From Paraburkholderia largidicola (GTDB lineage: Bacteria; Pseudomonadota; Gammaproteobacteria; Burkholderiales; Burkholderiaceae): DNA of 64,000 bases. Positions 14,370 through 42,254 of this stretch are shown in pieces (the stretch's first letter is position 1; every line of letters begins with the position of its first letter). The stretch covers positions 1,612,001-1,676,000 of the forward strand of contig NZ_AP023175.1 of NCBI RefSeq assembly GCF_013426895.1. Direction: 5' to 3'. The position numbers were made by a program, and so were the translations under genes. A model generated the notes under the pieces. It worked only from the letters and a program-made list of their open reading frames with translations, did not search any database and was not told where the DNA came from.

Positions 14370-15317
14370 TCAAGGCCCGAACTGCCCGAAGTACGTCTCG
14401 CGCTCGACGATCACAAGCGCCGCACGCTTGTGCGGAAAATCGAACTCCTTCAGCGTGAAAGCGCCCAGCCGGTGCATCCAGGCAATGTGCCGCGTGTGAT
14501 CGATGCGCGGCTCGCCGACAATGCGTTGCGTGCGTGGATCGTCGAGAAACATGTAATGCAGGATGCCGTTGAACCACGCGCGCAGCTTGCCCGCGCTCTG
14601 ATAGTCGCTGTTGCCGACGAGCAGATGCAGGCCGCGATCGAAATCGCCGGCGTCATAGAACGGTGCAACGCGATCTTCCTTCGCCCAATAGACCTCGAAG
14701 TACGCAAACGGCTCGTCATCGAAGCAACCGATCAGCGGATGCACATGCGGGTCCGCGCACTGCTCGGTCAGGTACGCCGCATGCTCCTCGCGCGTGCCCT
14801 TGAAGTCCCAGAAGTGCGCAACGCGATCCTGATTCTGCCAGGCGTGAAACGTATCCGTATCACGCTCGACATCGACCGTGCGCAGCGTGAAGGTCATACC
14901 GACCGTCGGCATGAAGCGGCGATACACCGTGCCTTGCGGTTTCGGCGCGCGCACGGGATGACGGCGGTTGTGATGGATCGTGTAGCGCACCGGCATACCC
15001 GCAGAAGAAGGCGCCGTGAGCCACAGCGACGGCTGCTGCCAGAAGGTCGCGCGCGACGTCGTGAGCCGCAGTGTCGAGCCTTCGTGCGCCGCGGTATCCA
15101 CGATACCCTCGCGGATCGCACGCATGACGAACGCGTGCGTCGCGTCGTCGTGTTCGAACGGCAAGGTTAGCGACACCTGCTGTCGCTTCGCATCGCGGCA
15201 AAAGATCTCCGCGAGCGCGGGCAATAGCTGCACGGGTGCCGCATCGCGCGGCCACGCCGACAATGCAAAGCCGTCCGGCGTCGGAACAAGTTCCTCAAAG
15301 GCCACGCGAGCGTTCAT
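14370..15317 (-). CDS. orbL: Siderophore GNAT acyltransferase (N5-hydroxyornithine acyltransferase, OrbL-like)
   Basis: A 315-residue protein with a C-terminal GNAT domain of the IucB/AlcB/RimJ-like siderophore acetyltransferase type (TFHAWQNQDRVAHFWDFKGTREEH, then PLIGCFDDEPFAYFEVYWAKEDRVAPFYDAGDFDRGLHLLVG and YMFLDDPRTQRIVGEP). In ornibactin producers such enzymes acylate the N5-hydroxyl ornithine side chain. ATG at 15317 follows AGGAAG. It is the last gene of the operon, 48 bp after orbA. It is clearly paralogous to the enzyme at 19054-20052. Which of the two carries the longer acyl group cannot be read from sequence. Confidence 0.85.
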   Translation of the reverse strand: MNARVAFEELVPTPDGFALSAWPRDAAPVQLLPALAEIFCRDAKRQQVSLTLPFEHDDATHAFVMRAIREGIVDTAAHEGSTLRLTTSRATFWQQPSLWLTAPSSAGMPVRYTIHHNRRHPVRAPKPQGTVYRRFMPTVGMTFTLRTVDVERDTDTFHAWQNQDRVAHFWDFKGTREEHAAYLTEQCADPHVHPLIGCFDDEPFAYFEVYWAKEDRVAPFYDAGDFDRGLHLLVGNSDYQSAGKLRAWFNGILHYMFLDDPRTQRIVGEPRIDHTRHIAWMHRLGAFTLKEFDFPHKRAALVIVERETYFGQFGP

Positions 15318-15365
15318 GCTTGTCTTCCTTCCTCAAATGATTCAATGGTCGTGGCGCGTTACCAC

Positions 15366-17555
15366 TTACCAGTCGTAACGCGCCGTCGCCAGCACCGTGC
15401 GCTGGTTGCCGTAGAAGCACGCGAACGCGCTCTGGCAACCCGTCACATAGCGGCGGTTGAAAATGTTCGTCGCGTTCACGGCGAAACGCCACTTGCTGAT
15501 GTTGTAGTGCACGGCCGCGTCGTACACGGTGTAGCCCGGCACATGCAGCGAGTTGTCCGCCGCGCCCGCGCTATAGCTCGCGTAACGCAGGCCAGCGCCG
15601 AAGCCGAGACCCGTCAGCGGCCCCGTGTGCCAGGTCCAGTCTGCCCATAGCGAAGCCGTCTGGTGCGGCAACGGAATCGCCACGGGCCACTTGTTCAGCG
15701 AATCGTCGTTGGCTTTGATGTTCTTCACATCCTGATACGCGTACGAAGCGATGATGCTCAGATCGCGCGTCACGTTGCCGACCGCGCTGAACTCGATGCC
15801 GCGCGAGCGCACTTCACCCGTCTGCACGCTGAACGTTCCCGTTGGATCGTTCGGATCGGGCGTCGTAACGTTGGTCTGATTGATCTGATAGATGGCCGCG
15901 TTCAACATCAGGTTCTTGTTGAACGGCTGCCAGCGCAAACCGAGTTCGATCTGCTTTCCCTTCGTCGGCTGGAAAGGCGTGCCGTCCGCGTTCACGCCGA
16001 TCACGGGATTGAACGACGTCGCGTAGCTGATGTATGGCGACAAACCGTAATCGCCGAGATACACGGCGCCCACGCGATACGTGAACGCATGATCGTTCTG
16101 TCGCTGCTCGGTGTTCGCGACGGTATCCGTCGTCGTGTTGCGGCTCCAGTCCTGGCGCCCGCCAATCGTGAAGACGATGCGCGGCGTCAGCTTGATCTGG
16201 TCCTGCGCGTAGACGCCGAAGCTGTCGAGCTTCGTTTTCGTATCGCTATAACCGAAGGAATTCGGTCCGCTGAAGATATCCGACGTCACGGGAACGTAGA
16301 CGGGATTGAACATGTTCAGGCTTGGCGCCAGCGCAAGCTGTTCGCTGTCCGTCGACAACTGCCGGTTGTATTCGAAGCCGAGCAGCACCGTATGCCCGAT
16401 CGAGCCCGTCTGGAATTGCGCCTGTGCCTGATTGTCGATGTCGAAGCGCGAGTAGTTCGGCTGGAACAGGCCCGCGTAACGCGTCAGCGACGCTTCCGTC
16501 GGGTCGGTCGGATCGAGGCCACCGCCGTACACCGTCGAGTTGTTCAACGACAGATGCATGTAGCGCGTGTTCTGGCGGAACGTCCACGTCGGATTCAGGC
16601 GCTGCTCGAACTGATAACCGACAGACCACTGCCGCTTGTCGTAACGCGCGAAGTTGCCGTCGCCCGTATAGAGGTCGTTCGAAATCACCCCATTCGGGTT
16701 CGGCAGAATCGTGCCGGACGCGGGCAGAAAGTTATCCGACACGTCCGTGTTGTCGCGCAGATAAGTCGCGTACAGCGTCAACGAGGTATCGGCCGTGGGC
16801 TGCCATTTGATCGACGGCGCGAACATCAGGCGTTGATCCGCGTTCGGCCCCGTCGGCATGTTGCCGTCGCGGCCTACGCCCACGAAGCGATAGGTCAGCG
16901 TGCCGTCCTTATCGATCTTGCCGCCCAGGTCGATGGCGATCTGCTTGCGCGCATCCGTGCCGATCTGCAATTCGATTTCGCGGATGCGTTCGGCTGTCGG
17001 CTGCTTGGTCTGAATATCGACGAGCGAACCCGGGTCGCCCTGTCCGTATAGCACCGACGTCGGCCCGCGCAGCACCGTGATGCTTTCGACCTGATACGGA
17101 TCGACGCGCCAGCTCGCGAGGTTCAGCGTATTCGGCACCTGCAAGCCATCCACGAACACGCTCGGCGTAAAGCCGCGAATCGCCGTGTACCAGTCCGAGC
17201 GTGTGCTCGCACCGTACGACGAGAAGCCCGGCACGTAACGCAGCGCCTGGTTGATCGACGTCGCGCCCTGCTCTTCGATTTGCGCCGCCGTCACGACGTT
17301 CACCGTCTGCGGCACTTCATCGAGCGGCGTGTCCGTCTTCGTCGCCGTCGCAGTGCGATGCGCGACGAAGCCCTCCGTATCGCCCGCCGCCGTGCCTTGC
17401 ACTTTCACGGCGGGCAATGTCGCGGCACTGTCTCGCGCGTCGTTCTGGTTATCCGGCGTCTGTTGCGCGTGTGCCTGACCCGTTGCGGCTGCGAGAAAAG
17501 TCATGCTGGCTGCCGCAGCAATGGCACGCCGTTGCGTGCCTTTGACCCACTCCAT
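15366..17555 (-). CDS. orbA: TonB-dependent ferric-siderophore outer-membrane receptor
   Basis: A 729-residue outer-membrane beta-barrel receptor with a signal peptide (cleavage near GQAHA-QQ), a TonB-box-like stretch (LPAVKVQG), a plug domain (DEVPQTVNVVTAAQIEEQG, RGPTSVLYGQGDPGSLVDIQTK) and a barrel ending in the aromatic C-terminus RTVLATARYDW. It belongs to the FhuA/FpvA-like hydroxamate siderophore group. ATG at 17555 after GAGGT. It directly follows pvdA with a 48-bp gap; in ornibactin loci a pvdF formyltransferase gene normally intervenes. It imports the ferric form of the siderophore made by the surrounding genes. Confidence 0.93.
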   Translation of the reverse strand: MEWVKGTQRRAIAAAASMTFLAAATGQAHAQQTPDNQNDARDSAATLPAVKVQGTAAGDTEGFVAHRTATATKTDTPLDEVPQTVNVVTAAQIEEQGATSINQALRYVPGFSSYGASTRSDWYTAIRGFTPSVFVDGLQVPNTLNLASWRVDPYQVESITVLRGPTSVLYGQGDPGSLVDIQTKQPTAERIREIELQIGTDARKQIAIDLGGKIDKDGTLTYRFVGVGRDGNMPTGPNADQRLMFAPSIKWQPTADTSLTLYATYLRDNTDVSDNFLPASGTILPNPNGVISNDLYTGDGNFARYDKRQWSVGYQFEQRLNPTWTFRQNTRYMHLSLNNSTVYGGGLDPTDPTEASLTRYAGLFQPNYSRFDIDNQAQAQFQTGSIGHTVLLGFEYNRQLSTDSEQLALAPSLNMFNPVYVPVTSDIFSGPNSFGYSDTKTKLDSFGVYAQDQIKLTPRIVFTIGGRQDWSRNTTTDTVANTEQRQNDHAFTYRVGAVYLGDYGLSPYISYATSFNPVIGVNADGTPFQPTKGKQIELGLRWQPFNKNLMLNAAIYQINQTNVTTPDPNDPTGTFSVQTGEVRSRGIEFSAVGNVTRDLSIIASYAYQDVKNIKANDDSLNKWPVAIPLPHQTASLWADWTWHTGPLTGLGFGAGLRYASYSAGAADNSLHVPGYTVYDAAVHYNISKWRFAVNATNIFNRRYVTGCQSAFACFYGNQRTVLATARYDW

Positions 17556-17603
17556 CTGATACCTCGGAAGATTGATGACGGCGCATCGCGCCGCTTGTTG
17601 TTA

Positions 17604-18989
17604 TCAAAGAGCGAAAGCCACGCGGCCGCCGCTCACCCCGGTTTGCGCCCCTGTGCGCGTTTGAACTGCGAAACTGTTGTCGTTGTTGCCGGCTTCGAGC
17701 GAGCCGGCGATTTCATCTGCACGGCGCGCGAGGATCGAGAGCAACGTGTCGCTCAAGCCGTGGCTGTCTTCGCAGCACCCTTGCAGATAGATGCGGGGCT
17801 GGAAATGCGCCGGCGTCGCGAGCAGGTAGTCACGCGCCACTTCGCATTGCTCGACGGGTTTGCCCAATGCGTCGGCGAGTGGATCGAGCAATGCGTGGTG
17901 CGCATCGCGCCGATAACCCGTCGCGAGCACGACGGCGTCGAAGCATTCGCCACGCGCATCGCCGTCCATGCGATCGCGCAGACGCATGTCGATTTCATTC
18001 CCGTGCGCACCTTGCACTTCACGCACGGACTCGATCGCACAGTTGTTCAGAAGACGATGACGCGCCGTGCCGCTCACGTTTTGCACGTACAGCAGTTCAT
18101 AGATCTGCTCGATCAACGGCCGGTCCACCACCGAGTAGTTGGTGTCGCGGAACGTATCTAGCAGCGAGCGGCGCGTGTCCTTGGGCTGCGAATAGATGAG
18201 ATCGGTGAACGACGGGTTGAAGATTTCATTGACGAACGGGCTGTCGTCGGCGGGTTTCAATGCGGGCGCGCGCATCACGAGCGTCGCGTCGACGTGCGGG
18301 AAGCGGCGCGTGAGATCGATGAACACTTCAGCCGCGCTCTGGCCGCTGCCCACCACGGCAACGCGACGCCGCGCCGTGTCGCCCTTGCCGTCGCCAATCA
18401 CGCTGCCGATCGTCGTCAGATAGTTCGACGAGTGGATCACGGCGGCGTCGCGCAAGGCCGCGAACGCGGCAGGAATCTGCGGCACACCACCCATGCCGAC
18501 CGACAACGCACGCGTCAACCGATGCCGCACCTTGCCTTGCGCATCGCGCGAATGCACGCGCAGGTGCGTGACGGTGCGCGGGTCGCTCTCGTCCGCGACC
18601 GGCTCGATCTGCGTGACCGACTCGCCGTAATGCACCTGATCGTCGAAGGCGCTCGCGACCCAGCGCAGATAGTCATGAAACTCGATCCGCGTCGGATAGA
18701 AGTTCTTCAGGTTGACGAAATCCTGCAGACGTCCACGCTCGAACAGATAGTTGATGAATGTGAAGCGGCTCTTCGGATCGCGCATCGTGACGAGATCCTT
18801 GAGGAAGGAAATCTGCATGCGGCTGTCGTCGAGCAGCATGCCGCGATGCCAGCCGAATTCCGGCTGCCGTTCGATGAAGCAATGCGCGCCCGGCGCGCCG
18901 CCGTTTTCCGCGAGGCGCACGGCCAGCGCGAGATTAGACGGCCCGAAGCCGACGCCGATCAGATCGTGAATGTATTCTCGTTGACTCAT
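17604..18989 (-). CDS. pvdA: L-ornithine N5-monooxygenase
   Basis: FAD- and NADPH-dependent hydroxylation of the ornithine side-chain amine, the committed step of hydroxamate siderophores. The 461-residue protein has the FAD motif DLIGVGFGPSNLALA, the substrate-region LLDDSRMQISFLKDLVTMRDPKSRFTFINYL, the NADPH motif VAVVGSGQSAAEVF and the DAVVLATGY motif. ATG at 18989 follows GGGAGA. It lies between orbK and orbA in the NRPS operon. Confidence 0.95.
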   Translation of the reverse strand: MSQREYIHDLIGVGFGPSNLALAVRLAENGGAPGAHCFIERQPEFGWHRGMLLDDSRMQISFLKDLVTMRDPKSRFTFINYLFERGRLQDFVNLKNFYPTRIEFHDYLRWVASAFDDQVHYGESVTQIEPVADESDPRTVTHLRVHSRDAQGKVRHRLTRALSVGMGGVPQIPAAFAALRDAAVIHSSNYLTTIGSVIGDGKGDTARRRVAVVGSGQSAAEVFIDLTRRFPHVDATLVMRAPALKPADDSPFVNEIFNPSFTDLIYSQPKDTRRSLLDTFRDTNYSVVDRPLIEQIYELLYVQNVSGTARHRLLNNCAIESVREVQGAHGNEIDMRLRDRMDGDARGECFDAVVLATGYRRDAHHALLDPLADALGKPVEQCEVARDYLLATPAHFQPRIYLQGCCEDSHGLSDTLLSILARRADEIAGSLEAGNNDNSFAVQTRTGAQTGVSGGRVAFAL

Positions 18990-19053: not shown

Positions 19054-20052
19054 TCACAGATGACGACCATCGAAGAACGCTTCGCGAACCACGCGCATCA
19101 GCAACGCCCGTTTGTGCGGAAATTCGAAATGCGCGATGCTGGAAAAACCATGCTGCTTCAGGTAATCGATCATGCGAGCGTTGTCGTGACGCGGCTCGCA
19201 CACCACCGCCTGCGTGCGCGGATCGTCGAGAAAGAGGTAATGAACCAGTGACGGTAGCCATGCGGCCACACAGGCAGCGCCGCGCCAGCGCGTGTCGCCG
19301 ACGAGCATGTGCAGGCCGCGATCGAAATCCGCCGATGCCGCGAACGGCGCAATGCGGTCTTCCTTCGCCCAGTACGCTTCGAAGTAACCGAACGGCTCGC
19401 CGTCGAATGCGCCGATCAACGGATGCACATGCGGTGTCGACAGCACGCGTTCGAGATACGCGCGATGCGCGTCGAGTGTGCCCGCCTCGCCCCAGAACGC
19501 GTTGACGCGCGGCTCGTTCATCCACGCGTGCAGGTGTTCGAGGTCCTGCGCGACGGATGCGGTGTGCAACGTGAGGCGATGCCCGAACCCGGGCACATCG
19601 CGCGCATAGACGACGCCGTCTGCATGAGGCGCGCGCCGCGGATGCCGCGCGCCGTCCGTCATCGCGTAAGACAGCGCTGCGTGAGGGATCGACGCATCGC
19701 GCGTGAGCCACAGATCAGGCTGCTGCGCCCATGCATCGCGCAGGCATAGGTGCTGCGCCGTCAACACGCCGCTGTGGCGCAGCGCGTCGTACGCCTCGCG
19801 ATGCAGCCCGTCGCTATCGAGCGCGATGGACTTGCTGTCGCGGCTCGCGCCGAACGCCGCACGCAATGCGGCCAGTACCGCGCGCCGTTGCCCCAGCGGC
19901 GAAATCCCCTTGCACCATTCGACGATGTGCAAACCATCTTCGTGCGTCCAGCGCGCATTCAGAACGATGCCCTCTGCGCGGCCGTCTTCTGCCACCGTGA
20001 TCGCATCGCCTTCCAGATATGCCGCCAGCGACGGCTGTTTGAACGTGTTCAT
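19054..20052 (-). CDS. orbK: Siderophore GNAT acyltransferase (OrbK-like)
   Basis: A 332-residue paralogue of orbL. The first ~150 residues are a degenerate N-terminal half. The C-terminal GNAT domain contains HLHAWMNEPRVNAFWGEAGTLDAH, PLIGAFDGEPFGYFEAYWAKEDRIAPF, DFDRGLHMLVGDTRWRG and YLFLDDPRTQAVVCEP, all typical of IucB/MbtK-like siderophore acyltransferases. ATG at 20052 follows GGAG, 16 bp after the orbJ stop. Together with PvdA it would supply acylated N5-hydroxyornithine to the synthetases. With no formyltransferase in the locus, this enzyme or OrbL may serve both ornithine residues. Confidence 0.85.
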   Translation of the reverse strand: MNTFKQPSLAAYLEGDAITVAEDGRAEGIVLNARWTHEDGLHIVEWCKGISPLGQRRAVLAALRAAFGASRDSKSIALDSDGLHREAYDALRHSGVLTAQHLCLRDAWAQQPDLWLTRDASIPHAALSYAMTDGARHPRRAPHADGVVYARDVPGFGHRLTLHTASVAQDLEHLHAWMNEPRVNAFWGEAGTLDAHRAYLERVLSTPHVHPLIGAFDGEPFGYFEAYWAKEDRIAPFAASADFDRGLHMLVGDTRWRGAACVAAWLPSLVHYLFLDDPRTQAVVCEPRHDNARMIDYLKQHGFSSIAHFEFPHKRALLMRVVREAFFDGRHL

Positions 20053-20068
20053 GTCACTCCGTGTGAAA

Positions 20069-23000
20069 TCAGCGTGCATCGCGCAGCTCCGTCGCCGGTT
20101 CGCGTGCTTCGGGCGCGATGTTCGCGTCGGTCCGCAGCGCCAGCGCATGGGCCACGCGCGTCAGCGTTTGATGAACGAACACGTGGTCGATCCTGATTGC
20201 GTAGCCCGCCGCGTTCGCCGCATCGACGAAGCGCACGACATCGAACGACGTCGCGCCGGCCTCGAACAGGTTGTCGTCGTGATCGGGCGCATGGCCGTCG
20301 AAGGTATTGGCCCAGATTCGCGCGAGCGTCTGCGTGAGTCGTGCAGTGCGCGGCGTTGGATCGACTGGCGTGTGATGCGATTCCGACTGCGTGGGATTGG
20401 ACGGCTCGCCCGAAATGACAATCGCTTCTTCCGGCGCATCAATAAAACGCGTGACAGCGGCCAGATAACCGGCGCACAACCGCGCGACGAACTCGCCATC
20501 CACCAGTTCGCGTCCATACGAGAACGCGCCCGTCACGCGGCCATCCGGATGCTCGACGATATCGAGTTCGAGATCGAACACGACGCGATGACGCACGTCG
20601 TTGAATTCATCCACTTCGACGCCGTGCCACTCGCGCGTATCGCTTTGCGCAGGCCGCAGATAGTTGAACATCACCTGGAACAGCGGATTGCCGTTCGCGG
20701 TGCGCGACGCTCGCACACTGTCGACGACCTGCGCGAACGGCGCCGCGACATGCGCATACGCACCCAGCGCCGCTTCGCGCACGGCGGCAATCACCTCGCG
20801 CGGCGAGCCCGCTTCGCGCATCGCCGTGCGCACGACGACCGCGTTGATGAAGAGACCGATTACGTCGTCGGTGGCGGCATCGCGTGTCGATGCGAGTACG
20901 CCCACCGCCTGATCGAGCGCGCCCGTCTGCCGTGCGAGCGCGACGTTCAGCACCGCGTGCAACAGCATCGGCAGCGTGGCGTGCGACGACATCGCCAACG
21001 CCTTCGCGCGTTCGACCGTCTGCGCGTCGAACTCGAACGCGATGCGTCCCGCGCTCCATTCGGGCGAAACGGGGCGCTCGCGCGCAGGCTGCGGCAAACG
21101 CATAAACGGTATGTCGCGCAATGCATCGCGCCAGTACTTCAGGTCGGCTTGTTTCGGTTTCGTGCGTGCGGCGAAAGCGGGTTTCATCGACGACGTGCTC
21201 AACGGCCCGCCTGTCGCGGATGCCGCGTAAGCGCGTTGCACGTCGTTGAGCCACACGTCGATCGAATGACCGTCGGCGACGATGTGATGGATCACGACCG
21301 ACAGCACATGCTCCTCGTCGTCGAGGCGGATCAGGCGCGCGCGCCACAGCGGCGCCTGGGCGAGATCGAATGGCGCTAGCGCGTCTTCATCCGTAAGCTG
21401 CGTCGCCCGCGCAATGCGTTCATCCATCGACGCAAGCGCGTGCAGATCGACCACGGGCAACGTCACGCGTCGATGCGCGTCGATCACCTGACGCGGTTCG
21501 GCCGCGCCCTTGGCCGATACCAGGCGTGCGCGCAACGCGGGATGCTTGCGCGCTGCATGATCGAATGCGTTTTCGAGTGCGGTCGCATCCACGGCGCCCC
21601 GCAGGCGCAATGCGACGGGAATGTTGTACGCGGCGCTTTCCGGCTGCGCGCGCCACAAGAACCACAGCGCGCGTTGCGCATCGCTCAGCGCGAGATCGGT
21701 TGCCTCTTTCACTTCCGGCTCTTCACGCTCGATCTCGCGCGCCCCGACACGCGGCGACTCAGCCACGCGTTGTGCGTATGAAGCGAGCGTCGACGCCTCG
21801 AACAGCGTGCGAACGGGCACATCGTGCGCGAGCCGTTCGCTGACGCGCGTCGCGACGCTCACGGCCGCTAGCGAATGACCGCCCAGTTCGAAGAAATGAT
21901 CGGCGCGGCTCACGCGCTCGACGCGCAGCACGTCGCACCAGATCGCCGCGAGCGCCGTTTCGATGCCAGCTGCGGGTGCGTCGAATGCGCGCTCGACGCG
22001 CACCGGTTCCGGCAACGCCGCGCGATCGATCTTGCGGTTCGCGTTACGCGGTAATGCATCCAGCACGACGATCTGCGGCGGCACCATATAGTCCGGTAGC
22101 GCGCGGCGCAAATGCGCAGCGAGCGCATCGCCATCGACTCGCTCGCTGCGCTCGCGCGCCGCGTCGCTGAGTTCGACATAGGCAGCGAGCGCCGCATCCA
22201 CGCCACTGCCACGCACGACGGCCACCGCATCGCGAACATCGTCGTGCGTCATCAGGCGCGCTTCGATCTCGCCAAGCTCGATACGCAAGCCCCGCACCTT
22301 CACCTGATGATCGATACGGCCGACGAATTCCAGTACGCCGTTCGTGCGCCGCCGAACCAGATCGCCCGTTCGATACAGCCGCGCGCCCGGCGCGCCGAAC
22401 GGATCGGGCACGAAGCGCTCGGCCGTCAGCGCAGCGCGCGCGTGATAACCGCGCGCGACGCCCGTGCCGCCCAGATACAGTTCGCCCGTCACGCCGACCG
22501 GCAGCGGCCGCAGGTTCGCGTCGAGCACATGCGCGGTGCGTTCGCCCACCGGCGTGCCGATGGGCAGATATGCGGCATCCGCGATATCGCTGGCGTCCTC
22601 GTGCGCGTCGATCATCCACAGCAACGGCGTAATCACCGTCTCCGTCGGACCGTAGCCGTTCACGACGCGCACATCGGGAAACGCCTGCCGCAGCGCCGCG
22701 AACGCTTCACGCGAGGTCGCCTCGCCGCCGACCGTGAGCGAGCGCAGCGAACGCGGGGCGCCGTGTGCGCGCGCCCATTCGGCCATTTGCAATGCGTAGC
22801 TCGGCGGGAATGCCGCAATCGTGATCCGTTCGCTCGCGATCGTTTCGCAGGTTTGCGCGGGCGGCCACAACGCATCGTCGGTGATGCGGATGTCGACGCC
22901 TGCTGTCAACGGCGCGAGCCAGCATTCATGTGCGCCATCGAAATTGATCGACATGAAGTGCAGCACGCGGTCTTTCTCGCGCATGCCGTATCGCGCGGCA

Positions 23001-25051
23001 ATCGCCGCGCAGTGCATCGCGATCGAAGCGTGATCGACGACCACGCCTTTCGGCTTTCCCGTCGAGCCGGACGTGTAGATCAGATACGCGGCCTGCGTCG
23101 GCGCAATGGTCGGTTCGTGATATTCAACTTCACTTTGCGACGCTTCATCTTCCGCGTCGATTAGCCATACGCGCGTGCCGTGCCGCAGCGGGAGTTTGGG
23201 CACATGTCGTCGTTCAGTAACGACATGTTCGATCGACGCGTCGTCGACGATGTGCGCGAGCCGGTCGCGCGGATGCGTCGGGTCGAGCGGCACGAATGCG
23301 CCACCCGACTTGAGGATAGCAAGCAGGCCCACGAACAGATCCGTCGAGCGACCGACCGCGATGCCGACTCGCGTTTCCGCGCCGACACCCGCCGCCATCA
23401 TCCGCGCCGCAAGCCGCGCGGCGCGTACGTCGAGTTCTGCCCGCGTGAGCGTCTTTTCGGCGTCGATCACCGCGCTTACATCGGGCTTCTTCTTCGCGTG
23501 CTGCGCGAGCTTCGCATGCACAGGGACGAACGGCGCATCCGTATGTTCGTACGCATTCCACGCATCCAGCTGCGCGCGCTCGTCCCGTGTCAGCCATTCG
23601 AGGTCGCCGACGGGCGCGTGCGACGATGCAAGCGCGCTGTCGAGCAATTGTGCGTACTCGCCCGCAATCCGCTGCACGGCCTGCGCGTTGAACAGATCGG
23701 TCGAGTAGACGAACGCGGCATCGAGCGCGCCGTCTTCGCGCTCCTCGAACCCGAGCGTCAGGTCGAACTTCGCATAAGGCGCGCCGAACGGAAGACCGGT
23801 CATGCGCACGTCGCCGAATGCGGGCAACGCCCGGCGCGCCCCATACGACGCCATCACCTGAAACAGCGGATGATGACTCGCGCTGCGCGGCACGCCGAGC
23901 GCTTCGACCACCTGCTCGAACGGCACGTCCTGATGCGATTGGCCATCGACGAGCGCACGCTGCACGCTGTCGATCAACGCGTCGAACGGCTTGCGCATAT
24001 CGACCGTCGCGCCTACCGCGAGCGTATTAACGAAGAAGCCAATCAGCCCCGCCGTTTCCGCGCGCTCGCGATTCGCGGCCGGCACGCCGATCTGCACATG
24101 CGTCTCGCCGCTCGCCCGCGCGAGCAATGCATGCAAGGCCGCGAGCAGCACCGCGAACGGCGTCGCGCGACGCGCCTGCGCGAGCGCACGCACGCGCTGC
24201 GCGGTCGTTGTATCGATGGTGAAGTAGTGACGTCCGCCGTGCGCGCTGCGCTGCATCGGCCGCGCGCCGCTGCCCGGCAACGCGATCACGCCCGCATCGG
24301 CCTTCACCTGTTCGCGCCAGAATTGCAGCTGACGTTCGGCCTCGCCCGCATCGAGCCAGCGGCGCTGCCACAGCGAAAAGTCCGCGTATTGAACGGGCAG
24401 CGGCGCGAGTTCAACAGTCTCGCCATTCGCGTATGCGCGGTAGAACGCGGCCAGTTCTTCAAGCAACACATCGATCGACCAGCCGTCGGAGACGATGTGG
24501 TGCATCGTCAGCACGAGCCAGTGCGTCGAGTCGCCGAGCGCGATCAGATGGACGCGCACGAGCGAGTCCTGCGCGAGATCGAACGGTTGGTCTTCGTCTT
24601 TCGCCGCCACATCGGCAGCGATGCGTTCACGCTCGTCGCTTGCCGCGCGCGACAGATCGGTGAAGCGCCACGGGCACCGCGCAGGCGCTTGCACGACCTG
24701 TTCGACGCCGCCATCGGCGGATTCGGCAAAGGTCGTGCGCAACGCTTCATGACGCGCAATCAGCGCATCGAATGCGTGCCGCAGCACCGCGCGATTCAGG
24801 TCGCCGTCGAGCCGCAGCCGGCTCGTCACGTGATACGCAGCCGGCTCGTCGATCATGCGCGCGTGCAGCCACAGCCGCGTCTGCGCGAACGATGCAGGCA
24901 CGGCCGACGAACGGTCCGCGCGCGCCGGAATCGGCAGTACGCGGAAGTCGATGCCTGCCTCACCGAGCTTCGTGATGAACAGCTTGCGCTGTGCGTCAGG
25001 CAACTGCGCGAAACGCGCGGCAAGCGCCAGCAGATCGGGTTTGGATGTCAT
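20069..25051 (-). CDS. orbJ: Siderophore NRPS, C-A-T-C-T (OrbJ-like)
   Basis: A 1660-residue non-ribosomal peptide synthetase. Domains in order: C (HHIVSDG near residue 186), A (YTSGSTG near 659), T (LGGHS near 1057), a second C (HHIVADG near 1257) and a terminal T whose motif is the atypical GATSFDV (Ser near 1599). No thioesterase. The A-domain code read from FDGAHE, AFPPSY, TVGGEA and NGYGPTETVIT is D-G-E-A-T-G-G-I-T, like the first A domain of OrbI and consistent with a modified ornithine. The terminal C-T pair is typical of ornibactin/malleobactin synthetases, where an amine (putrescine) ends the chain. The start at 25051 has GAGGAA; an ATG at 25066 overlapping the orbI stop (ATGA) is the alternative. 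Confidence 0.93.
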   Translation of the reverse strand: MTSKPDLLALAARFAQLPDAQRKLFITKLGEAGIDFRVLPIPARADRSSAVPASFAQTRLWLHARMIDEPAAYHVTSRLRLDGDLNRAVLRHAFDALIARHEALRTTFAESADGGVEQVVQAPARCPWRFTDLSRAASDERERIAADVAAKDEDQPFDLAQDSLVRVHLIALGDSTHWLVLTMHHIVSDGWSIDVLLEELAAFYRAYANGETVELAPLPVQYADFSLWQRRWLDAGEAERQLQFWREQVKADAGVIALPGSGARPMQRSAHGGRHYFTIDTTTAQRVRALAQARRATPFAVLLAALHALLARASGETHVQIGVPAANRERAETAGLIGFFVNTLAVGATVDMRKPFDALIDSVQRALVDGQSHQDVPFEQVVEALGVPRSASHHPLFQVMASYGARRALPAFGDVRMTGLPFGAPYAKFDLTLGFEEREDGALDAAFVYSTDLFNAQAVQRIAGEYAQLLDSALASSHAPVGDLEWLTRDERAQLDAWNAYEHTDAPFVPVHAKLAQHAKKKPDVSAVIDAEKTLTRAELDVRAARLAARMMAAGVGAETRVGIAVGRSTDLFVGLLAILKSGGAFVPLDPTHPRDRLAHIVDDASIEHVVTERRHVPKLPLRHGTRVWLIDAEDEASQSEVEYHEPTIAPTQAAYLIYTSGSTGKPKGVVVDHASIAMHCAAIAARYGMREKDRVLHFMSINFDGAHECWLAPLTAGVDIRITDDALWPPAQTCETIASERITIAAFPPSYALQMAEWARAHGAPRSLRSLTVGGEATSREAFAALRQAFPDVRVVNGYGPTETVITPLLWMIDAHEDASDIADAAYLPIGTPVGERTAHVLDANLRPLPVGVTGELYLGGTGVARGYHARAALTAERFVPDPFGAPGARLYRTGDLVRRRTNGVLEFVGRIDHQVKVRGLRIELGEIEARLMTHDDVRDAVAVVRGSGVDAALAAYVELSDAARERSERVDGDALAAHLRRALPDYMVPPQIVVLDALPRNANRKIDRAALPEPVRVERAFDAPAAGIETALAAIWCDVLRVERVSRADHFFELGGHSLAAVSVATRVSERLAHDVPVRTLFEASTLASYAQRVAESPRVGAREIEREEPEVKEATDLALSDAQRALWFLWRAQPESAAYNIPVALRLRGAVDATALENAFDHAARKHPALRARLVSAKGAAEPRQVIDAHRRVTLPVVDLHALASMDERIARATQLTDEDALAPFDLAQAPLWRARLIRLDDEEHVLSVVIHHIVADGHSIDVWLNDVQRAYAASATGGPLSTSSMKPAFAARTKPKQADLKYWRDALRDIPFMRLPQPARERPVSPEWSAGRIAFEFDAQTVERAKALAMSSHATLPMLLHAVLNVALARQTGALDQAVGVLASTRDAATDDVIGLFINAVVVRTAMREAGSPREVIAAVREAALGAYAHVAAPFAQVVDSVRASRTANGNPLFQVMFNYLRPAQSDTREWHGVEVDEFNDVRHRVVFDLELDIVEHPDGRVTGAFSYGRELVDGEFVARLCAGYLAAVTRFIDAPEEAIVISGEPSNPTQSESHHTPVDPTPRTARLTQTLARIWANTFDGHAPDHDDNLFEAGATSFDVVRFVDAANAAGYAIRIDHVFVHQTLTRVAHALALRTDANIAPEAREPATELRDAR

Positions 25052-25062
25052 TCGATCGTTCC

Positions 25063-28000
25063 TCATTGCGCTTCGAGTTCGCCGAGCAGCGCGTCGATCG
25101 CGCGCGCTGCGTCGTCGAGTGAGTGAGCGCCGCGCGCTTCGAGCGCCGCGTCGATGGCCGCCGCGCAGCGCGACAGCGTGCGGGCATCGAACAGCGTGCG
25201 CAGCGGCAGCGCGAGAGACCAGTGCAGATTGATTTGCGCATTCGCCTGCGTTGCGAGCAGCGAATGTCCGCCTAGCGCGAAGAAGTCGGCATCGCGGCCA
25301 ATCGCGTGGCTCGCGTCGATGCGCAGCACGCGTGTCCAGATCGCGGCGAGCTCGCGCTCGGTATCGGTCTGCGGCTCGGCCGCTTCTTCCGTTTGCAGCG
25401 ACGGCGCGGGCAACGCGTTGCGGTCGCACTTGCCGTTTGGCGTGACAGGCAGCGCTTCGAGTTCGATCACATGCGCAGGCACCATGTAGGCGGGCAACTG
25501 CGCGTTCAACGTTACGAACAGCGCGGCCTGATCGAATGCTTCTTCAGCGCGTCGTGCGACATAGCCGATCAACTGCTCGTCGCGCACGATCACGACGGCA
25601 TCATGCACGCCGGGCGCAGCCCGCAGCAGCGCTTCGATCTCGCCCGGTTCGATACGCAAGCCGCGCAATTTGACCTGCTGATCGGCACGGCCGAGATAGT
25701 CGAGCACGCCGTCCGCGCGCCGGCAAACGAGATCGCCCGTACGATAGAGACGCGCCCCCGGCGTGAACGGATCGGGGATGAAGCGCTCGGACGTCAGTGC
25801 GGCGCGCCCCAGATAACCGCGCGCGAGTCCAACGCCGCCCAGATACAGTTCACCGATTGCGCCCGCTGGCAACGGATGCAGCGACGCATCGAGCGCATGC
25901 AGTTGAATGTTTGCAATCGGCTTGCCGATGGGGACCGCGTCGGCTTGCGCATCGGCCTCCGTGCACGTCCAGTGCGACACGTCGATCGCCGCTTCCGTCG
26001 GGCCGTACAGGTTGTGCAATTGCGCCTGCGGCAGCAGCACACGTGCGCGTGCCACGAGTTCGGGTGACAGCGCCTCGCCGCTTGCCACGATGCGCGCAAT
26101 GCTCATGCATTGCCCAGCGGCATCGAAGTCCTTCAGATGGCCGAGGAACGCGCCGAGCATCGACGGCACGAAATGCAGCGTCGTTACGCCAAATGTGGCG
26201 ATGGCGGACGCGAGGCGCGCGGGGTCGCGATGATCGCCCGGTGCGGCGATAGCGAGCGTCGCGCCGACTGACAACGGCCACACGAACTCCCATACCGAAA
26301 CGTCGAAGCCGAACGGCGTCTTGTGCAGCACGACGTCTTGCGGCGTCAATCGGTACGCGTCCTGCATCCAGGCGATCCGATTCGCGAGCGCGCGATGCGT
26401 ATTGCCTGCGCCCTTCGGCTTGCCTGTCGATCCCGATGTGTAGATCAGGTACGCAAGCTGATCTTGCTCGACGGTGATGGGCGTTTCGAGCGCGGCATTC
26501 GCATCGAGTTCTTCGACGCACAGCACGCGTGTGCTATCGCTGCGGATCGAAGCGACAACGCGTGCATGCAGCGACCGTTGAGTGAGCACGACGGCGGGCC
26601 GAGCATCGTCGAGCAGATACGCGATGCGATCGGCGGGATAGTCGGGGTCGACGGGCAGATAGGCGGCGCCCGCCTTCAACACGCCGAACAGCGCGACCAC
26701 CATATCGACAGAACGCTCGACGCATAGCGCGACCACGCTGTCCGCCTTGACGCCTGCGTTGAGCAACGATGCGGCCACGCGGTTCGCGCGGTCATCGAGT
26801 TCGGCATACGTGACACGCGTGCGCGTTCCGTTGGCGTCGATGAAGTCCAGCGCGATTGCGTCCGGCGTCGCAGCAGCATGATGTTCGAACTGGCGATGAA
26901 GCGGCAGGTGCTGTTCAGCGAGCCACGTGTGCGCGGTATCGTTGAAACGCGCGAGTTGCGCGCAATCGTCCTGCGTCGCGATCGACACGCTACCGAGCAG
27001 CGCGTGCGGATCGGCGAGAAACGCTTCGATGCTTGCGTTGAACGCGCGATGCAGCACCTGCACGCGCGCTTCGTCGATACGCGCCGTGTCGTAGCCGTAG
27101 TCGATCGTCAGCGTATCGCCTGCCTGCACGACCAGCGTGACGGCCAGATCGGTCGATTCGACGCTGCGAATGTCCGACAGGCGCAGCGCGCGTTCGTCGT
27201 TCGCCGACCACGCCGGATCGACGGGATAGTTTTCGAACACGACCAGCGTGTCGAACATCGCGCCGCCACCCTGTCCGGCCCAACGCTGTATGTCGAAGAG
27301 AGGTGTATGCGCATGCTCGGCATTTGCCGCGTTGTCGCGCTGCAGGTCCGCGAGCCAGTCAGCGATGCGCCGTTGCGGCGCAGGCGTAGCAATGACGGGC
27401 AATGTGTTGATGAACAGGCCGAGCACGCTGTCGACGTCGGGCAATGCATCGGGCCGGCCCGCGACCGTCGCGCCGAATGCGACCGTCGCGTGATGGGTCA
27501 TCCGTTGCAAGGCGAGCGCCCATGCGCCCTGCACCAGCGTATTCACGGTCAACTTGAGGCTGCGCGCGAGCGCGGTCAGCTTCGTGGTCGCGGCCGCATC
27601 GAGTTGCGCGCGCCAGGTGTCACTGGGTGCATCGGCAGCATGGTCTGGCGATACGTTCGGCGCGACGAGCGTCGGCTCGTCGAAGCGGGCGAGGCGTTCG
27701 AGCCAGAATGCCTTATCGGCTTCGTGATCGCGCGCATCGAGCCACGCGATGAAGTCGCGATAGCGCAGCCGCGCCGCCTGTCCAAATGACAACGCGCGGC
27801 GCTCGCTCATATAGTCGCGCAGCAAGTCGGCGAACATGCGCGCCGTGCTCCAGCCGTCGAGCAGCAAGTGATGACGCGTCCACACGAGGCGCCATTCGTC
27901 GTCGGTGAGGCGGATCAGCGTCACACGCATCAGCGGCGCTTGTGTCAGATCGAAGCCTTGTGCGCGATCTTCCGTCAGCCATTGCTCGAAGTTTGGGTCT

Positions 28001-31000
28001 TGCGCATCGCGGCCACGCCAGTCGAGCACGGCGACCGGCAGCTTTGCCTGCCGATGGACGATCTGCAGCGGCACATCGGCGTCATGCCAGAAGCTCGTGC
28101 GCAAGATGTCGTGCTGCGGCACGATGCGATTGAACGCATCCGTCACGCGTGCGATATCCGGCGAGGTCAGCGTCGCGACGAGTTGATTGACATAGGTGGT
28201 GCGATCGGGCGCATACAGCGAGTGGAACAGAATGCCCTGCTGCATCGGCGATAGCGGGTAGATGTCGTCGACCGTGCGCAAATCGAGGTCGAGGCGTTCG
28301 AGCATCGGCTGCGAGAGACCCGCGCGCTGCGCGAGCGGGAAATCGGCGGGCGTGGCGCTCGCGCCGCGTGTCGACACGCGTTCGATACAACGTGCCGTGA
28401 TATCGCGCAACGTGGTTTCAAAGGTGCGCGCAAGTTTTTCGATCGTGCCCGCCTCGAACATCGAGGCGCTATAGACCCAATGCACCTTCAGCTTGCGTGC
28501 GCCGTCGATATGCGCGTGAATCGCCAGTGCATTCGACATCGGACCCGCCGGGTCGCGCTCGCAACCTGCGCCGCCGAAGCGGCCGCTCAGCGCCCGGTCG
28601 TTCGACGCTTCGCCGAACTGGCCCAGGTAGTTGAAGGTCACACGCGGGCGCGGCAGCGCGGCAAGCGTCGCGCGCGTCGCATCGTCGGCGAGATAGCGCA
28701 GCACGCCAAAGCCAACACCTTTGTTCGGCACTGCGCGCAACGCCTCCTTGACGGCCGTGAGCGTATCGGCACCCGACGCACCGACGGGCAGCGCGACGGG
28801 ATAGTGGCTCGTCAGCCAGCTGATCGAGCGGCTCGTGTCGAAGTCTTCGAACAGCGCTTCGCGTCCGTGGCCTTCGAGTTCGATCAGCAGCGAATTCGCT
28901 TCGACGCTTGCACCCAATGTGTGAGCGAGCGCGGCGACGAGCAGATCGAGCGTCTGCGTGCGCCATGCGGCGTTCGCTTCCGTGAGCAGCGTCTGCGTGA
29001 GCGTGGTGTCGATCGTCCATTCGACCGTGCACGCGCCGGCATTGATCGCCGTGCCTTGCGGATCGTCGAACGGCAAGGCGGCGCTCGCGTACTGCATCGA
29101 GGTCCAGTACGGCAGTTCTTGGCTGAATAGCGCCGTTGCGTTGCTGGCGAGACGTTGCGCCCAGTCCGACGCTTGCGCGCCTTGCGCCGCGAGCCTGATG
29201 GAACGCCGCTCGCGTACCGCGACGTAGGCGGCATCGAGATCTTCGAGCAGCACGCGCCACGACACGCCATCGACGATCAGATGGTGAATCGCGATCCACA
29301 CACGCGGCGTGCCATCGGGGAGCATCGCGACGAGCGCGGCCGCAAGCGGACCGCGCGCGAGATCGAAGCTGCGCTGCAACTCGTCGAATTGCGCGAGTGC
29401 GTCGTGTTCGTCGCGGGCTTCAATGGCGATCAGCGGCAGCGTGTCGAACGGTTTGTCGGCGTGGCGCGCGCTCCACGAAGAGGACGCGTCTTGCGTGAAG
29501 CGAAGGCGGAACCCGTCGTGATGCGTGAGCACTGCGTCGAACGCCTGCGCGAATGCGTCGAGATCGAAGCGTTCGGTCGCGTGCAGTTCGATAGCCTGAT
29601 TCCAGTGGTGGCGCGCGGGAATCGTCAACTCGAAAAAGCGCTGCTGCGCAGGCGTCAGCGCGGCATGTGAGGCGTCCGGTTTTGAAACGGAGCGGGCTTC
29701 CGCTTTCGGCTCGGCGGCGGCAACCGCTTGAGCAACTTGCGCGAGTTGCGCGACGGTCGGCTTGTCGAACAGTTGCTTCGGCGTGAAGCGCACCCCGCGT
29801 TTGCGCGAACGCGCAATCACCTGCAACGCGAGAATCGAGTCGCCGCCCAATTCGAAGAAGTTGTCGTCGCGGCCAACGGTTTCCGCGCGCAGCACTTCTT
29901 TCCATACGTCCGCGAGAATGCGTTCCGCGCCTTCGAGCGGCGCTTCGCTCGCGGCTTGCACGACGGGCCGTTGCGCAAGCTCACGCAACTTCACACGGTC
30001 GATCTTGCCGTTCGGCGTGACGGGGAACGCGTCGCACAATATCAACGTCGCGGGCACCATGTAGTCGGGCAGTCGCGCGGAGAGTTGCGCGCGCAGCGAT
30101 GCTTCGTCGCCCGCTCCTTGCACGACGACGAACGACGCGAGCCGCGCGCGGCCGTCTTCATGGATCGCCAGCGTCTCCGCCTGCCTGACGCCATCGAGCG
30201 CACGCAAGGTCGCGCTGATTTCGCCGGGCTCGACGCGATAACCGCGAATCTTCACCTGATCGTCGAGACGGCCCAGATAGTCGATTGCGCCGTCCGCGCG
30301 CAGGCGCACGCGGTCGCCCGTCCGGTACATGCGCGCGCCGGTCGCGTCCGGCACGAAACGCTCCGCAGTCGCCGCGGGCCGGCCCAGATAACCGCGCGCG
30401 ACCCCGGGCCCGCCCAGATACAGTTCACCGATTCCACCGACCGGAACGGGCGCGCCGTTCGCATCGAGTACGCACGCGTGCGCGTTCGGCAACGGACGCC
30501 CGGTGGGCACGCCCGCCGATGCGCTCGCGCCGTTCATGTTCGCGGTCGCGTCGAACGCGAGCGCGCCGACGGTCGCTTCCGTCGGGCCATAGTGATTGAT
30601 CACGCGGCATGCAGGCCTCAACGATTTAATCCGTTCGACGAGCGTCCACGGCAACGGCTCGCCGCCCAGCACCAGCGCGTGCGACGGCAGTACGTCGGCG
30701 GGTTGCTGCGCTTCGAGCAACGCGTGCAGATGACTTGGCACGATCTTCAGCACGCCGACGCCACGTTCGCGCATCGTCGCGGCAAAGCGGTCGGGATCGA
30801 ACGCGGCTTCTTTCGGCAGCAGATGCAGCGTGCGACCCGAGCACAACGCGCCGAACAGCGTCGTGTGGCCGAGATCGGCGGCAACCGTCGATACCATTGC
30901 CATGCTTGCGCCGGGCGCGAATCTCAGTTCGTCGAGCATGCCTTGCACGTAATCGGCGAGCGCGCGATGCGAGACGACGACGCCCTTCGGCGTGCCCGTC

Positions 31001-34000
31001 GAACCTGAGGTGTAGATCAGGTAAGCGGCCTGTTCAGGCGCAATCGAGGCGCATGCGGCTTCGTTGTGCGTGTCGATCAATGTATCGAGCGACAGGACAG
31101 GCGCTTTGGTTTCGATCTGGGGTGCACCGGTGGCCACGATCACACAGCGCGAATCGCATCCGGCGACGGACGCTTCGATACGTTCACGCGGCGCGGCAGG
31201 ATCGAGCGGCACGGCCATCGCGCCCGACTTCAATACCGCGAGCAACGCGACGACGAAATCGACTGAGCGGTCGATGCACACCGCAACCGCCTGCTCCGTG
31301 CCCGCGCCGCGTTTCATCAACGCGTGCGCGGCGAGCGACGACGTGCGGTCGAGTTCTTCGAACGTGAGTTGCCGCTGTGCGTCGGTGACGGCGATCTGCT
31401 TTGGCGTCGTGTTCGCGTGATGCGTGAACGCTGTAACGACATCAGCGAATTCGAACGCCTGCGTACGGCCTTGCAGCACGTTGCCGTCTGAGCCAGCACA
31501 AGCGAACGAACTGACCGACGACGCCGGATTCGCCACGCTATCCGTCAGCAGCGCAACAAAACCGTCGAGCCATGCCAGTGCAGTCGCATCGTCGATGCAA
31601 TCCGTCGCCCACGCCGCGACCAGCTCAATGCCGCGCGTGTCGTCGGTGAAATCCAGCGCGAAATCGAAACGTGCCGCGTTGTCGGGACCAGGCGTCAATG
31701 TCGCGACCGCGCCCGGCAACGCGACAGGTTCGTCGAACACGAACTGCTGCGCGAACTTCACGCGCAGCCATTCTTCGCCGCGCCGCACGGGCGGCTTGAC
31801 GGCATCGATCACCTGATCGAACGGGATGTCCTGATTCGCGTACGCGCCGAGCGTGGTGTCGCGCACTTGCGCGAGCAACGCGCCGAACGGCGCATGGGGC
31901 GACACGTGTGCGCGCAACGCTACGGTGTTGATGAACAGGCCAAGCAGATTCGCTACTTCCTCGCGCTGACGGTTGGCGACAGGCGCGGCAATCACGATAT
32001 CCGTCGCAGCCGTCAGCCGATGCAGCCAGGCATGCAACGCAGTCAGCAGCACGATGAATGTCGATGCATGCGCGCCGCTTGCGAGATCGCGCACAGCGGC
32101 CGATACATGTTGATCAAGACGCCGCGAAGCGCGCTTGCCGATGAGCGTGCGCTCCGCGGGTGCCGTGCGATCGACGGGCAATGCGAGCGGCGCGGGTGCG
32201 TCCTTCAATACATCGCGCCAATAGCCGAGTTGCCGCTCGCGTTCCGCGCCATCGAGCCATTCGCGCTGCCATTGCGCGAAGTCCGCGTATTGCGCGGTGA
32301 GCATCGGCAACGCAGCGGCGCGGTTTTCCGACAGCGCAGCGTAGGCTTCCGCCAGTTCCGCGAATGCGCAACGCGACGACCAGCCGTCGCTGATCGCGTG
32401 ATGCGCTGTCAGCATCAGGCGATGCTCGTCGGCAGCGAGCGTGACGAGCGACGCGCGCAGCAAGGGACCGCGTTGAAGATCGAAAGTCCGCGCTGCGTGT
32501 TCGTCTGCGAGTTCGCTTGCGCGTGCCTTGCGTGACCCGAGCGCGACGCCGCGCAGATCGATTTGCTCGACAGGCACCGCGATTCGCCCATGAACGCGCT
32601 GCATCACGATGCCGTTGTCGTCTTCGTGCAGCGTCGTGCGCCAGGCCTCGTGACGTTCGATCACTTGCGCGAGCGCCTTTTCCAGCAACGGATGATCGAT
32701 CGACCCGCGAATGTTCCAGTGCGCGGCGATGTGATAAGCGTCGCCGGCGTCGCGCGTTTGAGCGAGCACCCAGAAACGCTGCTGCGCAAATGATGCGCGA
32801 TGGTCCGTGTAGACCTTTGCCGTCGTGCTTCGCATGGCGGCTTTCAACGGCAACGGCTGTGTGAGATCTTCTGCTTCGCTAGCATCGACGAGCGCGGCAA
32901 GTTCTTCGAGCGAACGATCGGCAAACAGCGCATCCAGGCGCAGGTTCACGCGCAATTCCGCGCGGATCGCGGCCTGCATGCGCATGATCGCAATCGAGTC
33001 ACCGCCTCGCGCATGAAAGCGGTCATCGAGGCCGACAGGCTCGCCGCCCAGGATCGCATGCCAGATCGCAGCGAGTTTGCGTGCGGTGTCGCCTTGCGGC
33101 TCGCGATACGACGCAACGGCCTCTTGCGACGCAACGCGTGCACGCAGCGCTTCGCGATCAAGCTTGCCGTTCAGCGTATAGGGCAGTGCTTCCAACACCG
33201 CGAAGCGATGCGGCTGCCATGCTTCAGGGAAGTGCCGCGACAGATGCTCACGTAAAGCGCTTTCATCAATTGTGTTCTCAGTCACGACACAAGCGGTCAA
33301 CTGCACACGCCCAGCAATCTGTTCGACCAGCACAGCCGCATCGCGCACGCCGGGATGCGAGCGCAAACATTGCGCGATCTCGCCGGGTTCGATACGCACG
33401 CCACGAATTTGCACCTGATCGTCGATGCGGCCCATGTAGTCATAAGCGTCGTCACTTCCGAGGCAAGCGAGATCGCCGGTGCGATACACCCGCGAACCTG
33501 GCGCGCCATCGGCATCGGGAATGAAACGCTCAGCCGTTTGCGCCGCGCGTCCGTGATAGCCGCGTGCGAGACATGCGCCGCCCAGCAGCAGTTCGCCTGC
33601 CGAGCCCTCTCCGATCGAAGCGCCATCAGCCGATCCGGGCGCGCTCACGCGAGCCGTGCGCAAACCGATCGGCCTGCCGATCGGCAACGATGCGCATGAC
33701 GTGTCATCGAACGAGCCACTCACATCGAGCGGCCACAGCATCGGCGAGATCACCGTCTCCGTCGGGCCGTAGCCGTTGATCAGACGCGCGTTGTTAAACG
33801 TTTGCCTGATTTCAGCGAACACATCGCCGGGCATTGCTTCGCCGCCGAACGCGAGCACACGCAACGCAGCCGGCGCGCCGTGAAGCCGCGCGGCTTGCGC
33901 GAATTCACGCAGATACGCGGGCGGAAACGCGGCAATCGTCACACGCTCCTGCTCCACAAGTGCGCGTGCGTCGTCGGGCGCAACCGCGCCGGGTGCGGTG

Positions 34001-34659: not shown

Positions 34660-34746
34660 TCGTGTGAAGTCCTTCGGCAAAGCCGCTATGCCGCTGCATC
34701 GGGACGCAGTTTGTCCCGGTCCCAATTTCAGCGGCTTCACACAGGT

Positions 34747-37471: not shown

Positions 37472-38488
37472 TCACCGCGAAGCGGACGATCCCACCGGCA
37501 GCGAAAGCAACGCATCAGTCATAGCCTGCGACAACCTCAACGCCGACATCGGCCCACCAAACCCCCAAACATTACGCTCGACCAACGTCACCCGTCCCTC
37601 ACGCCGAGCAGGCACAAATCTCCAGACAGGCGAATCGAGCTTCGCATCAAGCGTCACTTCCGGCCCAGTTGCGCTCGTCAGCAACACACTCGTCTGGGGG
37701 CGTTTCAAGAAATCCTCCGACGTCAGATAAGTCGTCCCTTCGCGAGTCGGCTTCGAAGGCCATAGCGTCACACCGAGCTTCTTCGCGACGCCGCCCGCCA
37801 TACTGTTGCTCGTGTAGGCCCAGTACCGGTCGGGCAAACCCAGTTCCTGCAACAACGCAAAGTCAACATGCGAGCGGCCCGCATCGGCCAGACGCTTTGC
37901 ATCGCGTGCGAGGCCCTCATCGAGCTGCCGTTCGACGGCTTGCGCCTGAACCGTGCGCCCCGTAATGCAACCGATCGTATCGAAGATCCTCCGCGCCCAT
38001 TCGAGCTGCGTCGCCTGCGCGCCGTCGAGCTTCATCTCCGGGCTGAACTGGAACAACACGGTCGGCGCGATCGATTGAAGCGCTGCGAAGATCGGCGCGT
38101 GCCGGAAGCCAACGCCGATGATCAGGTCGGGTTTGAGCGCGGCAATCGCTTCGAGGCTCGGCTCCTGGCGCGTTCCGACATCGGGCACGGACTTCATGCG
38201 CTCGACGCCATAGCCGATCCACGACGGGTAATACGCGGTGTCGACCATGCCGGCAGGCGTGACGTCGAGCGAAAGCAGCGCTTCGGCGAACAGGAATTCG
38301 AGCACGACGATGCGCTTAGGATGCGCGGGCAACGTGTCGCTCGCCTGTGTCACGGTGGGATTCGCGGACAGCGGCGTACACGAGAGCGCGACCGCGTCGC
38401 GAGGCGCTGGTGTCGCGCCTGCAGCGTTCGCAGTACAGGCAAACGCAAGGCACGCAGCACATACGGTCGCGCGCAGCGCCTGCTTCAT
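37472..38488 (-). CDS. orbB: Periplasmic ferric-siderophore-binding protein (OrbB-like)
   Basis: A 338-residue class III (FhuD/FecB-like) substrate-binding protein with a signal peptide (cleavage near TANAAG). The core starts with [28 protein letters not shown] and includes [38 protein letters not shown]. It hands ferric siderophore to the OrbD permease. Start ATG at 38488 overlaps the orbF stop (ATGA). It is the last gene of the orbH-G-C-D-F-B operon. In the well-known B. cenocepacia order orbB precedes orbF; here the two are swapped. Confidence 0.9.
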
Positions 38489-39282: not shown

Positions 39283-39284
39283 GT

Positions 39285-42250: not shown

Positions 42251-42254
42251 CGAG

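Follow-up and report, generated by a model that had tools for sequence, protein, structure and literature searches.

The window analysed here, a 64,000-nucleotide stretch of the Paraburkholderia largidicola genome, carries at positions 14370-44428 an ornibactin-type siderophore cluster that runs on the minus strand except for orbE. The cluster comprises an ECF sigma factor, a TauD-type dioxygenase, uptake genes, an FhuF-type reductase, an ABC exporter and the NRPS pair orbI and orbJ, together with two GNAT acyltransferase genes (orbK and orbL), pvdA and orbA (Table 1). The sequence-only reading of this DNA had picked out both acyltransferases, and both prove to be Pfam PF13523 proteins with intact motifs; we refer to them as PhmK and PhmL. 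The pvdA reading frame extends to 19070, with the Met at 18989 as the likelier start, and the long orbJ frame probably has its true start further in. On either side of the cluster (window 10772-13484 and 44893-46260) lie genes for a LysR regulator, an NCS1-type permease and an MFS transporter. All three also flank the cluster of P. phymatum STM815 (genome G140), and the LysR regulator and NCS1-type permease flank that of locus L008; these shared neighbours place the cluster at the same site in the genomes concerned.

Table 1. Features of the siderophore cluster and their positions in the window; codes and residues are those read from alignments.
Feature	Position	Strand	Remarks
phmL (orbL)	14370..15317	-	GNAT acyltransferase, SidF/MbtK type; Pfam PF13523; OrbL clade
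phmL catalytic His231	14625-14627	-	His and FPHKR motif both there
orbA-orbL interval	15318..15365		48 bp; pvdF site in B. cenocepacia and most orbA-containing pvdF-bearing loci
orbA	15366..17555	-	OrbA-like TonB-dependent siderophore receptor; 61-62% identity to B. cenocepacia OrbA
pvdA-orbA gap	17556..17603		48 bp; similarly short gap in B. cenocepacia
pvdA	17604..18989	-	Ornithine N5-monooxygenase; Pfam PF13434
phmK (orbK)	19054..20079	-	GNAT acyltransferase; Pfam PF13523; SidF and Rv1347c alignment; ORF extends to 20148
phmK catalytic His280	19309-19311	-	Intact; FPHKR motif at 19108-19122
orbJ (phmJ)	20069..25429	-	NRPS module 4 and extra condensation domain
A4 adenylation domain	22031..23506	-	Code DGEATGGITK; Ala at GrsA position 278 = 22811-22813, Glu239 = 22925-22927
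orbI (phmI)	25063..34740	-	NRPS modules 1-3
orbE	34867..36714	+	ABC exporter
orbB	37472..38554	-	Periplasmic siderophore-binding protein
orbF	38485..39822	-	FhuF-type siderophore-iron reductase
orbD	39285..41411	-	FecCD-type permease
orbC	41408..42364	-	ABC transporter ATP-binding protein
orbG	42255..43280	-	TauD-type dioxygenase, presumed aspartate hydroxylase
orbH	43420..43653	-	ORF of 77 aa, which we take to be MbtH-like from its motif
orbS (phmS)	43712..44428	-	ECF sigma factor

No PvdF-like formyltransferase is encoded in the window, as had been claimed from its letters, and we find none in the whole 9.47-Mb genome either, with a Pfam profile or with a PvdF query. The profile, PF00551, recovers five proteins genome-wide, namely PurN, Fmt, PurU, a second PurU-type protein and an ArnA-like formyltransferase (PRK06988), and NCBIfam gives each of the five the name of another enzyme, housekeeping or sugar-type. 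Because PF00551 barely picks up PvdF itself (28.1 bits for the B. cenocepacia protein, against a cut-off of 26.1), the genomes were also searched with B. cenocepacia PvdF, a stronger test, and this query gives no match at E 0.001 in the window genome or in the four other pvdF-less genomes covered (G000-G004, that is, the window, L006, L007, L047 and L057), and one match each in four of four control genomes; for L008 the search covered 21 kb only. A formyltransferase elsewhere in the genome, the other option that the sequence-only reading had raised, is thus not supported at the sensitivity of these searches. The second PurU-type protein is a formyltetrahydrofolate deformylase (L004, G000:C2:182257-182787) that stands besides the usual PurU (L003).

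The gap between pvdA and orbA, to which the absence was originally tied, has the size reported (the last base of the pvdA stop codon is 17604, the start of orbA 17555), but it is the wrong site for a missing gene, because pvdA and orbA are also adjacent in B. cenocepacia. The order there (L027) is pvdA-orbA-pvdF-orbL, and the counterpart of its pvdF interval in the window is the equally short stretch between orbA and orbL.

Three known cluster types bear comparison with the one in the window. The phymabactin (phm) cluster of P. phymatum STM815 shares its phmS-phmL gene set apart from orbA: the queried genes of the orbS-H-G-C-D-F-B-E-I-J-K-pvdA-L set match in the same order (orbA apart; orbH was not among the queries), the proteins are mostly 76-93% identical, and both clusters lack PvdF and carry the same A1 and A4 codes. 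The window has the combination that marks the phm type, OrbK present without pvdF. Its orbA lies between pvdA and orbL, whereas G140 has neither room for orbA nor a match there; orbA is missing from both L117 (the G140 locus) and L008 (Tr-20389), where pvdA is directly followed by orbL. Ornibactin (orb) clusters of the B. cepacia complex (Bcc) have the same NRPS layout, PvdA, OrbL, OrbA, and uptake and sigma-factor genes as the window, and their A1 likewise combines Glu239 with Ala278, so that OrbL with an acyl-type A1 is common to both, but they differ from it in having pvdF, in the Tyr278 of a formyl-type A4, and in an OrbK with Arg for the catalytic His. Malleobactin (mba) clusters of the P. 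xenovorans LB400 type share the NRPS layout and PvdA, but have a formyltransferase, an A1 with Thr278 and, over the 20-kb locus, no match to OrbK or to OrbL; none of these three features is found in the window.

A wider range of loci was compared. A first set consists of the best 80 of 299 loci found with PvdA, of which 56 are of the orb/mba type (L006-L060 and L062) and were counted; the other 24, including L076 and L083, which are also pvdF-bearing, are more distant and were left out. Within this best 80 of 299, pvdF is present in 51 of the 56 orb/mba-type loci and absent in five (L006, L007, L008 and the Trinickia loci L047 and L057), and it is these five whose OrbK is 64-90% identical to that of the window. 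A survey of 144 genomes of the genus finds PvdA at at least 65% identity in 26, and only a distant PvdA (36-53%) in seven more; 15 of these carry PvdF without a PhmK match, the other 11, among them the phymabactin producer G140, carry PhmK without a PvdF match (threshold E 1e-20 in either case), and pvdF and PhmK are mutually exclusive among these 26 PvdA genomes. Four of the 144 genomes carry other GNATs at 43-52% identity, and G176, which lacks such a PvdA, carries two PvdF pieces. With genomes common to both sets removed, 14 distinct pvdF-less and 58 distinct pvdF-bearing loci remain (the first set being the best 80 of 299), counts that overstate independence, as the loci are related. The 14 phm-type loci belong to at least two genera, Paraburkholderia and Trinickia. 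The comparison with phymabactin and other Paraburkholderia loci that had been proposed thus supports the doubly acylated variant among the original options, in that pvdF absence tracks intact PhmK and A4 Ala278. Two 4.1-Mb genomes, G041 and G115 (L113-L116, L119 and L120), have phm-type clusters with PhmK but without OrbL; orbI of G115 and orbG of G041 are spread over more than one reading frame.

Adenylation-domain codes were taken from multiple alignments, with positions numbered on what we take to be the correct template, which reproduces a published table. For LB400, the A1, A3 and A4 codes read here equal those of Table 2 in PMC4786211, A2 of LB400 lying outside the set. The window's OrbI reads DLEAAGGISK for A1 (Ala278 at 33928-33930), DLTKVGHVGK for A2 and DVWHVSLIDK for A3. 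All 14 distinct pvdF-less loci have the A4 code DGEATGG[IV]TK, and all 57 readable of the 58 distinct pvdF-bearing loci have DGEYTGGITK (50 of 51 in the first set, from the best 80 of 299, where L017 ends before A4, and 15 of 15 in the genus set), and the sole residue that separates the two types is 278, Tyr in the pvdF-bearing and Ala in the pvdF-less loci. Among the 35 A1 domains read, Ala278 is found in all 15 from pvdF-bearing loci with OrbL and all eight from pvdF-less loci, and Thr278 in all 12 from loci with PvdF and without OrbL. At 239 and 278 the pvdF-less A4 matches ornibactin A1, the loader of acyl-hydroxyornithine; at 236, A1 has Leu in the phm type versus Ala in ornibactin. These patterns suggest that in the ornibactin/malleobactin family Ala278 marks acyl- and Tyr278 or Thr278 formyl-hydroxyornithine. 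The end domains of the window do both carry modified-ornithine codes, as initially proposed, but the last of them, with Ala rather than Tyr at 278, does not read as a formyl code. Acylation reportedly precedes assembly in ornibactin biosynthesis.

An exchange in which A4 took over the A1 pocket was suspected from a 40-residue pocket window in which identity to A1 is 58% for the pvdF-less A4 versus 40% for the pvdF type. Trees of the pocket core and of its flanks both keep the A4 domains together (100/100 and 100/99), and a tree that joins pvdF-less A4 to A1 can be rejected for the flanks (p 0.011), though not for the core (p 0.27), so that a swap is not borne out.

PhmK resembles the hydroxyornithine and hydroxylysine acyltransferases SidF (E 9e-43) and MbtK (Rv1347c), and an alignment with them matches at the catalytic His: within its Acetyltransf_8 (GNAT) domain, His280, in a D[RE][RE]?GLH-like motif, is equivalent to Rv1347c His130, a residue needed for activity according to the accessible text of PMC11424930. 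PhmK and the Bcc OrbK proteins form one clade and OrbL another (ACYLTRANSFERASES). The PhmK/OrbK clade groups neither with OrbL nor with the GNAT of a vicibactin-like locus, which we take to be VbsA with a 3-hydroxybutyryl donor, so this tree does not reveal the acyl donor. The catalytic His and FPHKR are both present in 16 of 16 PhmK ORFs, which represent all 14 distinct pvdF-less loci (four of the 16 were read by eye), and in 51 of 51 OrbL ORFs (two pairs come from the same genome). In pvdF-bearing Burkholderia, by contrast, where orbK stands upstream of pvdA, 23 of 23 OrbK ORFs (L009-L034, L058 and L062) have Arg for this His and lack FPHKR, and an OrbK fragment in L017 also has the Arg; judged by these residues, the Bcc OrbK appears catalytically dead. 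Over five loci the dN/dS ratio of phmK is 0.16 and that of phmL 0.09; the values are 0.23 for orbK, 0.19 for orbL, 0.14 for pvdA and 0.12 for pvdF over 22 Bcc loci. Bcc orbK is thus under purifying selection and no free pseudogene, a result that speaks against regarding it as a simple relic.

B. multivorans WS-FJ9 (L033), with OrbK and PvdF but without OrbL, provides an open test of this assignment, as an active OrbK should go with an acyl-type A1 and a dead one with a formyl-type A1; its A1 code, DVETLGGISK, is of the formyl type, which agrees with a dead OrbK. L033 differs from the other Bcc loci read, in that its PvdF is 66% identical to that of B. cenocepacia, and it looks malleobactin-like. 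In Caballeronia glathei (L011), a 292-aa ORF with 47% identity to part of B. cenocepacia OrbK is a possible orbK remnant in a cluster that bears OrbL and PvdF.

The absence of pvdF, the intact PhmK and Ala278 of A4 together lead us to infer that the cluster probably specifies a phymabactin-type member of the ornibactin/malleobactin family, the hydroxyornithines of which are not N5-formylated but acylated at both ends, the C-terminal one probably by PhmK; this is the first of the two outcomes that the sequence-only reading had considered. PvdA would produce N5-hydroxyornithine, and PhmL (OrbL) and PhmK (OrbK) would convert it to N5-acyl-N5-hydroxyornithine, with acetyl, 3-hydroxybutyryl or a longer chain as candidate acyl groups. 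The A1 domain in OrbI and the A4 domain in OrbJ, which share Glu239 and Ala278, would load this residue at the two chain ends, with OrbG and A2 furnishing hydroxyaspartate and A3 serine, for a predicted chain of acyl-hOrn/OH-Asp/Ser/acyl-hOrn, and the last condensation domain would probably add putrescine for release, as in ornibactin. Calculated neutral masses for the predicted product are 650.3235 (acetyl/acetyl), 694.3497 (3-OH-C4/acetyl), 722.3810 (3-OH-C6/acetyl) and 738.3759 (3-OH-C4/3-OH-C4), position isomers being equal in mass; for a ferric formyl/formyl form this calculation yields 675.2037, in agreement with PMC4786211. In pvdF-bearing relatives, A4 with Tyr278 would instead take formyl-hydroxyornithine. 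We lean slightly towards a division of labour in which PhmL serves Orn1 and PhmK Orn4. Reversed roles, or both enzymes acting at both positions, seem rather less probable but deserve serious weight: G041 and G115 have A1 and A4 codes like those of the window with PhmK and without OrbL, so that PhmK alone apparently serves both ends there, while OrbL accompanies the acyl-type A1 in pvdF-bearing loci and intact PhmK accompanies the acyl-type A4.

Other explanations account less well for these features. A C-terminal hydroxyornithine that is left unacylated or cyclised, with only the N-terminal one acylated, would be compatible with Ala278, which shows only that no Tyr closes the pocket, and malleobactin congeners with an unprotected hydroxylamine have reportedly been described; yet the locus retains two intact acyltransferases, and A4 has at 239 and 278 the residues of ornibactin A1, an acyl-hydroxyornithine loader, which makes this outcome improbable. 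Formylation of the C-terminal ornithine by an enzyme outside the cluster, to give an ordinary ornibactin or malleobactin, could draw on the five PF00551 proteins of the genome, including the second PurU-type and the ArnA-like one. Against this stand the empty PvdF search, the other names that NCBIfam gives to all five, and an A4 without the Tyr278 of every readable pvdF-bearing locus, and we regard it as very improbable. Least probable of all, to the point of being hardly credible, is that pvdF was lost recently and the cluster is decaying or its product non-functional. The missing gene itself is what suggests such a loss, but the arrangement recurs in 14 distinct loci and in at least two genera, the nine pvdF-less rows of the PvdA tree all fall outside the clade of 51 pvdF-bearing loci, the dN/dS values of phmK and phmL are low, and the P. 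phymatum cluster makes a siderophore, as the accessible part of PMC10991261 reports.

The direction of change was considered with two trees. In the PvdA tree, one clade (100/99) unites the 51 pvdF-bearing loci and leaves the nine pvdF-less rows outside, although the grouping of the latter among themselves is without support (67/6) and long outgroup branches are flagged. In the pocket-core tree, the formyl-type domains, represented by 13 of 50, sit at the end of the longest A4 branch (1.28). Both trees suit formylation as the later state and neither proves it; a recent loss of pvdF finds no support in the genus survey or the PvdA tree. It is conceivable, at somewhat below even chances, that the formyl-free, doubly acylated form is the older one, and that, in an ancestor common to ornibactin and malleobactin, PvdF entered the cluster, the A4 pocket closed with Tyr278 around formyl-hydroxyornithine and OrbK lost its task; OrbK would then be dead but conserved in the B. 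cepacia complex, and gone or truncated elsewhere, a corollary that we hold with the same reserve.

The phm cluster itself is already in print, and published gene maps may already display the missing pvdF without comment. In the text accessible to us, Esmaeel et al. (PMC4906002) named phymabactin, predicted Asp for A1 and Cys for A4 and reported no orbL, and Vargas-Straube et al. (PMC4786211) placed B. phymatum with the ornibactin-type clusters. Butt and Thomas (PMC5681537, in part) mapped the phm cluster, called its product unknown and noted a receptor gene in other species with the cluster. According to the available portions of two papers by Golaz et al., deletion of phmJK abolishes the only siderophore of P. 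phymatum STM815 (PMC10991261), and the phm siderophore binds Al and Fe (PMC12297923). A 2025 paper (PMC12704434), in the section seen, states that the formyltransferase is absent from ornibactin clusters; contrary to this statement, the Bcc loci compared here carry pvdF. Within the literature searched (main texts, few of them subscription papers, and no figures or supplements), we found neither the formyl-free prediction nor a phymabactin structure, nor, in those main texts, a description of an inactive-looking OrbK.

These comparisons give phymabactin-type siderophores a specific structural prediction, and suggest that one A-domain residue, Ala versus Tyr or Thr at 278, may tell acyl- from formyl-hydroxyornithine in the ornibactin/malleobactin family. 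They also indicate that the two enzymes often regarded as alternative ornibactin acylases, OrbK and OrbL, are not equivalent. If the acylated form is indeed the older one, it would account for the presence of two acyltransferase genes in ornibactin loci, whose product has a single acylated residue.
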